From contig NZ_AP018694.1 in assembly GCF_009689585.1 (NCBI RefSeq), positions 3,239,001 through 3,303,000 of the forward strand: a stretch of 64,000 bases of DNA. The letters are read 5' to 3'. The notes beneath the pieces are model-generated. The model did not search any database. It was not told the origin of the DNA and worked only from the letters and a program-made list of their open reading frames with translations. The stretch is from Aquipluma nitroreducens. Its GTDB lineage: Bacteria; Bacteroidota; Bacteroidia; Bacteroidales; Prolixibacteraceae. The translations under genes and the position numbers were made by a program. Below are positions 3,315-6,139 of this stretch, in pieces; the first letter of the stretch is position 1, and the number at the start of each line of letters is the position of its first letter.

Positions 3315-3653
3315 TTATAAAATGCGCGAAACTGTTGCAGGCCGTGGGGCTTTTACCACCAAAATACGGGCAACATTGTGGGTCGGATTGTAGATGTTGT
3401 GAATGATATTGGCAGGACTTTCAACCAGGCAGTCTTTCTCGCAAAGCTCTTCTTCGTCGCCAACCTGAATGACCGGCGTACCTTCGAGTACAATAAAAAA
3501 CACATCAACAGGTGTTTTGTGCGCTTTTAATCCTTCTCCTGGTTGAAGGGTAATGTGCGACACCTGAGCCGATTCTTTGTCGTACAATTTTCGAACATCA
3601 ACTCCATGAGGGTTTTGATGCAGTTCCTGATCCTGATACCTTGTTACTTTCAT
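3315..3653 (-). CDS. Small cupin-domain protein
   Basis: A 112-residue single-domain cupin. The double-stranded beta-helix core spans about residues 30-105, with the first metal-site motif reduced to LKAHKTPVDVFFIVLEG and a later IIHNIYN segment. The substrate cannot be deduced; small cupins of this type occur in redox and detoxification settings. ATG 3653 was chosen because the longer frame (to 3725) would begin inside the neighbouring insertion sequence. The IS left end sits 37 bp upstream and carries an outward TATTTTTG box that could drive this gene. Before the IS arrived, the gene would have lain 34 nt downstream of the DUF438 gene on the same strand. Confidence 0.8.
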   Translation of the reverse strand: MKVTRYQDQELHQNPHGVDVRKLYDKESAQVSHITLQPGEGLKAHKTPVDVFFIVLEGTPVIQVGDEEELCEKDCLVESPANIIHNIYNPTHNVARILVVKAPRPATVSRIL

Positions 3654-3692
3654 TGCGTTTATATTTAATGTGTCCAATCTAGGCATATTAGT

Positions 3693-3700
3693 CAAAAATA
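3693..3700 (-). promoter_or_regulatory. Outward-facing -7 element within the IS left inverted repeat
   Basis: TATTTTTG on the minus strand matches TAnnTTTG and points out of the insertion sequence toward the cupin start 40 nt away. The -33 region is not clearly conserved. The same box lies in the right inverted repeat, pointing outward on the plus strand. Confidence 0.45.
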
Positions 3701-3744
3701 GTTGGTAAAAAGCTTTGTAAAGCACACCAATATTGATAATACAG

Positions 3745-3776
3745 AAAGTTTGATGAACTTGGTTTCATCAAACTTT
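3745..3776 (+). promoter_or_regulatory. Hairpin covering the transposase start codon
   Basis: AAAGTTTGATGAA (3745-3757) and TTCATCAAACTTT (3764-3776) form a perfect 13-bp stem with a 6-nt loop. The transposase ATG (3753) is inside the stem. Transcripts reading in from outside would hide the start codon, a known way of damping transposase synthesis in IS10 and IS50; applying it here is inference. Confidence 0.6.
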
Positions 3777-4754
3777 TTATGTTTATGGAAAAATCAAAAA
3801 AAACGCTGTTGGGCCTGTGGATATACAGATGTTATTCGATGGGGAAAACAAGGGGGTAAGCAACGATTCAAATGTAAACGATGCGGAATTTTTCTAACTG
3901 AAAATCGTCCAGAACAGAGAATTCAAAACAGGTTTGTATGGTTCAGAAAGTGGATATTGGAACGTCAGACTTATCAAATTTTAAGCAGGGACAGCAGCCT
4001 ATCGCAAGCTACACTTCAACGGACATTTTACCATTTTTTAGAACAAGCGCCATTGGTCAAAATAATCAAGCGAGAGCGTGTTCATTTACGGATAGATGCC
4101 ACGTATTTTGCGCAGTTTTGTTTGGTTTGTTATCAAGACGATTTTGATGGCTACACCCAGCTGCATCGCTTTACTGACGGTGAACGCTATGAGGAAATCA
4201 AAGAGGATCTGGCTAACTTGCTCAAACTTGGGATTCAGATCGAAAGCATTACCACCGACGGTCATAAAAGTATCTTAAAAGCGATAAAAAGGTCAGTTCC
4301 AGAAGCTATCGTCCAACGCTGTCTGGTTCATATCCAGCGCATGTGCCTGCTGTGGCTAACACAGTATCCCAAACATCAGGCCGGACAGGAACTACGCAAA
4401 CTGGTGCTATTTATCCTTCGAATTAAATCAGAAAATGACCGGATTTACTGGACAAGAGAGTTTCTAAAATGGCATGAAACACACAAAGATTACTTGAATG
4501 AAAAAACATACAACACAGAAACCGGAAGATATTGGTACACACATAAACTGCTTCGCCGCTCTTATATAACCATCAAACGGGCTTTGCCAAACATGTTTCA
4601 TTACCTATCAAACCCAGATATACCCAAGACTACAAACGGGATAGAAGGATACTTCAGTCATCTTAAAAACCACCTGGATATCCATCGTGGGTTGACGGTA
4701 AAACACCGAATAAACTTCATCAAGTGGTACATTTATTTTGCTAACGCAAAATGA
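3753..4754 (+). CDS. IS256-family transposase, variant with N-terminal zinc ribbon
   Basis: DDE transposase of 333 residues. An N-terminal zinc ribbon (CWAC at 19-22 and CKRC at 41-44) precedes a MULE/IS256-type catalytic core. The likely acidic triad is D115 (LRIDATYF), D169 (TTDGHKS) and E298 (TNGIEGYFSHLK), with the CLVHIQR segment typical of the IS256 group between the second D and E. The frame is intact, so the element may still be active. A longer reading from a TTG at 3702 is less likely because it would start inside the inverted repeat. Confidence 0.9.
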   Translation: MNLVSSNFLCLWKNQKKRCWACGYTDVIRWGKQGGKQRFKCKRCGIFLTENRPEQRIQNRFVWFRKWILERQTYQILSRDSSLSQATLQRTFYHFLEQAPLVKIIKRERVHLRIDATYFAQFCLVCYQDDFDGYTQLHRFTDGERYEEIKEDLANLLKLGIQIESITTDGHKSILKAIKRSVPEAIVQRCLVHIQRMCLLWLTQYPKHQAGQELRKLVLFILRIKSENDRIYWTREFLKWHETHKDYLNEKTYNTETGRYWYTHKLLRRSYITIKRALPNMFHYLSNPDIPKTTNGIEGYFSHLKNHLDIHRGLTVKHRINFIKWYIYFANAK

Positions 4755-4927
4755 GTTTTTTTAAGCCATTGTGGGCATACCAGTAATAACAGAAAAAGGG
4801 CAGCTTGTTGGACTACCCTTGTATTACTGTTTATGCGTTAACCTTATTGCTGGCAGGTTGATCTCCATCAGAGCCTGCTTCCTCTTCGGATTAACTGCGT
4901 GGAGCTTACTAATTATTTTCCAAAAAA

Positions 4928-6139
4928 TCACCAACTATTTTTGACCACATTGCCCCAATCTAATAACCGCCTTTCTCCCTGAATGTTTCGTATTTCGGTT
5001 ATTTCCTGTGAGACTTCCACCACTCCTTTGTAATTTCCAAGTTCGTCGCGTACGGCAAAATATTGAATAAGAATGAATTCGCCCTTCAATTGAATCCAAA
5101 AGCTGGCTTTGTCTTTGTCTCCATTCCGGAAAGCTTCTACGATTTGCTCAACCACATGAACGCTTTCGTGCGGATGGCAGTTTTTCACGTCACGGCCAAT
5201 TATGGAATTGGTTCTCCGGAAAATTCGTTTTTCGGGTGTGGAGTAGAATTTTACTTTGTTGTTCTCGTCCACATAAGTGATGTCAACCGGTAAATGATTA
5301 AAAACAAGCATGATTTGCTCTGCGGATAAATAGCCGGTCTTCAAGTCCACTTCTCCTGAAAGTTCAGAAGTTGCCATGTTGATAGCTTCATTCCATATTT
5401 CAGGCGAAATAAATGGGAAGCCAATTTTAAGGCCTTCAGCAATTAGAGCCTTCAGTTCATTTTCAGGAATAATACCTGAAATAACAGGGAATAGAATTCG
5501 TTCTTCGCGGAATTTGATGGCGTAAATGTTGAAAAACAGATCTCCGACTAAGCGATTGAGTTTTTTGAGATCGAAGTCAGTGGCATTTAATAGCTGAATT
5601 GCCTCTTTGAGGTTTCGACGGATGTCGTCGTGGAACGACCACATTACCTGTACACAGCGATAGTCGGGTAAATACTTTTCGACCATTGGGAAAAGCACAT
5701 TTTCTTTAATTTGGTAATGCAAATCAATTTTGGACAAATCGGTAAGTTTATCTTTTAATTCGTCTTTTACCAGACGATTTCCCTGGTTGATTTCTTTCAA
5801 CAAAGGGCGAATCGCTTTCAGTTTTTGGTCAATCTGTTCGTTGTTTTGTATCAAAAAATCCAAAAAGCTTCCTGAAGCAGGTTCTGTGTAAGGGAATTCC
5901 TGAAGCGATTTGTTCAACAGATTGAGTGCTTTGTTGATGCCCATTTTTAGTCGTGGCATCGGAATTTGAAGGTTGACTAGCTCATCGACAACGGCTATTA
6001 CATCGCCGGGTTCGGCAAGGTCAATTACCTGCTGATAATTGGCTACCAATGCTGAAGTCATTTCTTCCTGAATAACCAATTGGAAGAGTTCTACTAATTT
6101 TTTTACTCTGCTCGCTTTATGATTGGTGAATTCTGACAT
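4928..6139 (-). CDS. DUF438 / hemerythrin-like / PAS protein, 3' end altered by IS insertion
   Basis: A 403-residue cytoplasmic sensor-like protein. An N-terminal DUF438 domain (about residues 8-80) is followed by a hemerythrin-like four-helix region (90-225) and a PAS domain (275-385). The hemerythrin region has H141, E146 and H170, but the second motif KFREERILFP has Ile where a ligand His often sits, so oxygen or iron binding is uncertain. The last six residues (VKNSW plus part of the preceding Val codon) and the TGA stop are read from the IS right end (4930-4945). Without the IS the frame would end LLDWGNV-TAA, so only the extreme C-terminus is changed and function is probably kept. Confidence 0.88.
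   Translation of the reverse strand: MSEFTNHKASRVKKLVELFQLVIQEEMTSALVANYQQVIDLAEPGDVIAVVDELVNLQIPMPRLKMGINKALNLLNKSLQEFPYTEPASGSFLDFLIQNNEQIDQKLKAIRPLLKEINQGNRLVKDELKDKLTDLSKIDLHYQIKENVLFPMVEKYLPDYRCVQVMWSFHDDIRRNLKEAIQLLNATDFDLKKLNRLVGDLFFNIYAIKFREERILFPVISGIIPENELKALIAEGLKIGFPFISPEIWNEAINMATSELSGEVDLKTGYLSAEQIMLVFNHLPVDITYVDENNKVKFYSTPEKRIFRRTNSIIGRDVKNCHPHESVHVVEQIVEAFRNGDKDKASFWIQLKGEFILIQYFAVRDELGNYKGVVEVSQEITEIRNIQGERRLLDWGNVVKNSW

Follow-up and report, generated by a model that had tools for sequence, protein, structure and literature searches.

An IS256-family element between a hemerythrin-PAS gene and a cupin gene in Aquipluma nitroreducens, and a transposase start that may involve a change of frame

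The genome of Aquipluma nitroreducens consists of a single contig of 5.71 Mb, and the window analysed here is the 64,000-nt stretch from 3239001 to 3303000. Its minus strand bears a hemerythrin-PAS gene (4928..6139), whose last eight codons and stop are supplied by an insertion sequence (IS), and a Cupin_2 gene encoding 112 aa (3315..3653), which the IS separates from its upstream partner. The complete IS, an IS256-family Zn-binding variant, lies between them on the plus strand (3682..4954) and measures 1273 bp, with edges taken from the flank alignment of 12 genomic copies. The initial annotation had placed a mobile element between the two genes, and both the 16-bp repeats described below and the genomic copies bear this out.

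The element is bounded by imperfect terminal inverted repeats of 25 nt (left, 3682..3706, plus strand; right, 4930..4954, minus strand), which match at 21 of 25 positions and of which the left is common to the genomic copies. Directly outside them stands an exact target-site duplication, CCAATCTA, at 3674..3681 and 4955..4962 (8/8 match). The perfect 16-bp inverted repeats at 3691-3706 and 4930-4945, which the initial annotation had taken as the ends of an element without target-site duplication, are indeed the longest perfect pair in the IS, but they lie inside the 25-nt repeats, and the true ends are 9 bp further out on each side. The repeats proposed earlier thus do not define the edges, a point that had been named as bearing against the whole reading, whose main inference survives with the edges moved by 9 bp. 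That the element ends at 3691 and 4945 and was inserted without duplication, as its longest perfect repeat would suggest, is extremely improbable, since bases beyond the 16-mers are common to 12 copies at unrelated sites: on the left, GGCATATTA occurs in 12/12 copies before the flanks diverge and, on the right, CACATTGCC, CAGTACATTACC or a similar sequence is found (n=12). Moreover, when the flanks of the genomic copies were compared at the outer boundaries, all 12 resolved to duplications of 7-8 bp, in two cases crosswise, which refutes the narrower edges.

These 12 matches were obtained with 3691-4945 as the query, five being near-identical and seven at 81% identity. Four copies, including that of the window, are identical over 1273 bp, and the fifth has a 1-bp deletion in the right repeat. 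A search with the terminal pattern gave 23 matches in the same genome and none with the reversed control. An exact 8-bp duplication flanks 8/12 copies and one of 7 bp flanks 2/12, while in the remaining 2/12 the 8 bp are shared crosswise. The latter two copies, at genome positions 2336486-2337726 and 2460520-2461760, belong to the group at 81% identity, are in opposite orientation and each, taken singly, has no duplication; the left flank of each equals the right flank of the other, 8/8 both ways (TGGTACAT and TAACCTTT). Judged from the flanking bases, these half-duplications are the signature of recombination with inversion of about 123 kb. The seven copies at 81% identity represent a sibling IS of the same family, which has its own 25-bp ends (GGCATATTACTG...) and a leader containing a run of eight A (A8) together with a TGA. 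A decayed copy was also seen in one relative (G022); it is 90% identical in DNA, its ends are altered, its leader contains a stop, and a target duplication is not clearly recognizable.

The transposase scored 182.5 bits against NF048019 (IS256 family, variant Zn-binding type; cut-off 150), in agreement with the earlier description of the element as IS256-like, and 33.7 against Transposase_mut PF00872 (cut-off 21). By these profile matches the element is an IS256-family, Zn-binding variant. Membership in IS1249 (NF033544) was rejected at a score of 180 against a cut-off of 300, although the alignment covered most of the length of that model. In the available text of PMC7780238, the IS256-family elements ISCth4 and IS256 share with the present element A/T-rich target duplications of 8 bp, terminal repeats that are imperfect and vary most at their outer tips, and an RNase-H-like catalytic domain, which corresponds here to the Transposase_mut match. 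The element differs from both by its N-terminal zinc ribbon and shorter protein.

Joined at the true edges, the flanks read ...RRLLDWTH and a TAA stop, followed after 11 nt by the ATG of the cupin gene. The restored end given previously, ...LLDWGNV-TAA with the cupin start 34 nt further on, has to be replaced, the GNV codons being IS bases, and the empty site predicted from it (GTGTAATATGCC), which relies on these codons, does not exist. Of 61 genomes related at the level of the order or more closely, 30 carry the hemerythrin-PAS gene, and the loci of 29 relatives were read. In 8/29 the site is empty, with a cupin gene on the same strand 10-98 nt downstream and no IS. The gaps are 10, 10, 11, 98, 10, 11 and 10 nt in the same genus (98 nt in relative G010) and 14 nt at one locus of another genus, so that seven cases at 10-14 nt and one at 98 nt speak for the former operon that had been suggested. 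The same-genus genes with this pair are the seven most similar of 15 orthologs (78-92%), and the eight less similar ones (66-76%) lack it; all seven upstream genes end in RLL(D/E)W plus two residues. A second, overlapping collection with largely the same organisms gave the cupin pair in 8 of the best 80 of 181 matched loci. No such cupin lies downstream in 21/29 relatives and 72/80 loci of the second collection, a few of the contigs ending within 500 nt; as far as these loci go, the pair is therefore a clade-level arrangement rather than a general one. The nearest named relative of the hemerythrin-PAS gene belongs to a Prolixibacteraceae metagenome-assembled genome (92%), and the cupin gene is complete, with 96% identity to its counterpart in the nearest relative. 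In relative G006, the last 15 cupin codons and stop (LVVKAPRPSTLSRIL and stop; positions 2701-2749 of locus L024) directly follow the hemerythrin-PAS stop, a fragment which, from its sequence, is a remnant of a cupin gene with the rest deleted. The A. nitroreducens genome also encodes two other cupins (4760468-4760803 and 4777798-4778133), with equal scores and 57% identity to the one studied here; they lie 17 kb apart and are perhaps a duplication.

The upstream gene had been labelled DUF438/hemerythrin-PAS. The hemerythrin and PAS parts of this label hold, PAS_10 and Hemerythrin being matched in 18/18 aligned homologs. DUF438 was not detected: PF04282, a model that matches in 2/14 control genomes, found nothing in the A. 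nitroreducens genome at E<=0.001, and DUF438 was absent among the families at E<=1 in the 18 homologs. As the initial annotation stated, the present stop (TGA, 4928-4930, minus strand) is read from IS bases, and only the last residues of the protein were replaced, on which the joined flanks and the ends of the relatives' proteins agree. The protein now ends in ...RRLLDWGNVVKNSW, of which GNVVKNSW is wholly IS-coded. The Trp of LLDW is invariant in the alignment of 18 homologs; the conserved core ends there and is intact here. Since natural tails after this Trp are also short (0-3 residues in the best 80 of 181 loci, except at L152, where the Trp is unaligned), the eight new C-terminal residues are probably harmless.

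Taken together, these features almost certainly reflect a single insertion with an 8-bp duplication, an altered protein end and the probable loss of cupin co-transcription. The 1273-bp IS inserted at TAGATTGG/CCAATCTA, in the 3' end of the hemerythrin-PAS gene, and duplicated 8 bp. As the reading frame stays open through these 8 bp into the IS end, the host protein now ends in ...LLDW-GNVVKNSW instead of ...LLDW-TH. The cupin gene, formerly 11 nt downstream of the stop, now stands 1274 nt away from it, behind an IS facing the opposite way. Two terminator-like hairpins predicted by the terminator scan on the strand being read (4796..4820, minus strand, facing transcripts from the hemerythrin-PAS gene, and 3776-3745) would add to this distance, although terminator-like sites (5 in 2.9 kb) were not clearly in excess of shuffled sequences (2.9 +/- 1.7). 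On the strength of the two predicted hairpins, a polar effect on the cupin gene is probable.

Alternatively, the IS end could supply an outward promoter, so that the cupin gene would be expressed alone rather than silenced. When the left repeat is read outward, it includes TATTTTTG, which we take to fit the Bacteroidota -7 motif TAnnTTTG. Promoter parts are also known at IS256-family ends (PMC7780238, available text). No well-placed -33 partner was seen by eye, however, a C replaces the last G of TATTTTTG in the seven sibling copies, and a sigma-70 scan, which does not cover Bacteroidota promoters, gave no minus-strand site from 3978 to the cupin start. An outward promoter is accordingly judged rather improbable, and probable polarity is the reading retained. 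Although the insertion by itself is routine, it is a clean natural example of an operon severed by a mobile element at the boundary of its two genes, with both proteins kept almost intact.

The start of the transposase gene, if borne out, is the new part of the finding. The transposase frame runs from the first Cys codon of the zinc ribbon to the stop at 3807..4754 (plus strand), and in the copy of the window it is open back to an ATG at 3753 or a TTG at 3702. The likely ancestral start is the ATG TTT ATG at 3779..3787, but its two ATGs are out of the zinc frame, since their distances to the first Cys codon, 28 nt from 3779 and 22 nt from 3785, are each 1 mod 3. Between them and the ribbon lies the A8 run (3796..3803), the proposed slippage site, which is the sole run of at least 7 A on the plus strand of the element and is the same in the seven siblings. 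A search with the window's transposase revealed in-frame stops in the elements of relatives. In place of the TGG at 3786..3788 (zinc frame), the seven siblings, with intact leader, and the elements of relatives G017, G481 and G526 have a TGA, and these TGA elements offer no possible start between the TGA and the zinc ribbon. The window's own copy thus has an open zinc frame, with TGG where the siblings have the blocking TGA. The possibility that the siblings read this TGA as Trp was discarded, since a hairpin arm occupies the stretch preceding the TGA and the part further upstream is not conserved as protein.

The arrangement was then followed across the group. Elements over the cut-off occurred in 25/393 genomes at the order level and 3/395 at the phylum level (samples that overlap), and plasmids were added; after near-identical leaders were collapsed, 39 distinct IS256 Zn-variant elements were kept, 31 of them full-length. 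In 32/38 elements the nearest ATG does not share the frame of the zinc ribbon (18 at 1 mod 3 and 14 at 2 mod 3); it does so in 6/38, one of these with an intervening stop, while the 39th element has no ATG within 48 nt. Within 16 codons of the zinc frame, 29/39 elements have no ATG, GTG or TTG, 5/39 have TTG only and 5/39 have ATG; no table-11 start of any kind is present in 21/39, or in 18/31 of the full-length elements. For the first 45 codons of the ribbon region, pN/pS was 0.05-0.20 in 10 pairwise comparisons among 5 elements, and for 289 codons it was 0.07-0.12. These ratios indicate that the zinc ribbon is under purifying selection, and therefore translated.

A frame change near the start is the simplest reading of these data, and start-proximal frameshifting or transcriptional slippage is likely. 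It would occur at the A-run, 4-8 codons into the gene and before the first zinc-ribbon cysteine. Between start and ribbon the run is 5-8 A long; elements at the lower end (5-6 A) agree less well with this reading, as do those whose zinc frame offers ATA, ATT or ATC. The competing account is homopolymer decay, assembly error, a rare-codon start, or a start downstream of the zinc ribbon, and some features agree with it: the frame offsets vary (1 or 2 mod 3), the in-frame ATA, ATT or ATC codons just mentioned could be used, ten elements have ATG or TTG in frame, annotation pipelines put transposase starts downstream, and runs of at least 7 A were not significantly linked to out-of-frame starts (22 out and 5 in, against 6 out and 5 in for shorter runs; Fisher P 0.12). 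Against it stand the 18 full-length elements devoid of any table-11 start, the low pN/pS of the first 45 ribbon codons and the fact that the arrangement is common to seven recently spread copies in one genome. An in-frame nearest ATG is, in addition, rarer (6/38) than the one third expected of random drift (P 0.013, a rough value, the elements being related). This account is therefore regarded as unlikely, though it keeps some weight.

Transcriptional slippage is favoured as the form of the frame change because the direction of the needed shift differs between elements; in the available text of PMC3711429, a shift direction that is not conserved within a family is given as a sign of transcriptional realignment. 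Reading-frame transitions at poly-A are known in IS630, IS1 and other transposases (PMC3711429 and PMC1088944, available texts), and these systems resemble the present one in both the poly-A site and the unconserved direction. In the case of IS1447, of the IS3 family, +1 transcriptional slippage needs a run of seven A, and an A-run after a stem-loop joins two frames into a full-length transposase, as proposed here (PMC6211511, available text). That element belongs to another family and its shift joins OrfA and OrfB, whereas here the shift would lie about 6-8 codons after the start. Within the IS256 family, the ISCth4 transposase is a single ORF (PMC7780238, available text), whereas the usual start is out of frame here. 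IS256 is not named in the texts of PMC3711429 and PMC1088944 as available (0 occurrences), and frameshifting in an IS256-family member was not found described in the literature searched, which included part of PMC5009743 and whose scope stopped short of ISfinder and most subscription papers.

In plasmid records, the annotated start lies downstream of the start of homology in 4/5, and the zinc ribbon is clearly lost in three of these four; the fifth record (Klebsiella) has a TTG that allows the annotated start to precede the ribbon. If the proposed frame change is true, public gene models of this widespread Zn-variant group are wrong at the N-terminus, and RNA polymerase slippage in Bacteroidota would have compact natural reporters in these elements.

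Immediately 5' of the ATGs, the leader contains a predicted hairpin with a covarying core (12-6-12; 3746..3775, plus strand) and a T run after it. In 16/16 elements examined of the window's subgroup, a strong hairpin (-12 to -22 kcal/mol) directly precedes the start ATG, mostly with a T run behind the hairpin. In the other subgroup (n=8), seven elements fold weakly (-1 to -5 kcal/mol), and L275 reaches -11.1 with a different shape. Among 11 distinct 30-nt cores, 9/12 pairs change on both sides. The cells are paired at 99.2%, against 84% in shuffles (0/500 reach 99.2%) and at most 57% after a one-column slide, in a structure derived from the same sequences as were scored, which favours the result. 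The probable role of the hairpin is to protect the transposase against read-through transcription, a strategy known for IS elements (PMC8944449, available text).

On balance, we think it reasonably probable that the Zn-variant group uses a frame change at the A-run, most likely by transcriptional slippage, that in the window's own subgroup the hairpin acts as a second brake, on read-through, and that the lineage of the window may have escaped. Having lost the upstream in-frame stop, this lineage could have left frame control, in which case its five near-identical copies would have been produced recently.

A preference of the element for intrinsic terminators was also considered. With a first scanner, 6/25 insertion sites lay within 5 nt of a terminator T run, against 6.1% of intergenic controls (P 0.0033), and with a fold-based scanner 8/25 against 3.6% (dG<=-11; P 1.8e-6). 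These were 12 sites in the A. nitroreducens genome and 13 in seven relatives, the order-level site of G048 being left out, and the idea had been drawn post hoc from the same 25 sites with several thresholds tried. With the definition fixed beforehand, 20 other flanks, most of which came from elements less closely related and two of which were the ends of a single copy, gave 1/20 against a local control of 0.9% (P 0.16). The effect was thus not replicated in these independent flanks, and intrinsic-terminator targeting was rejected; the preference is at best specific to the close clade. The insertion site in the window is not at a terminator. In genome G048, an end-like pattern match (L183) lies directly downstream of the 3' end of an apparent tRNA gene, and tRNA 3' ends are possibly another target of a distant relative.
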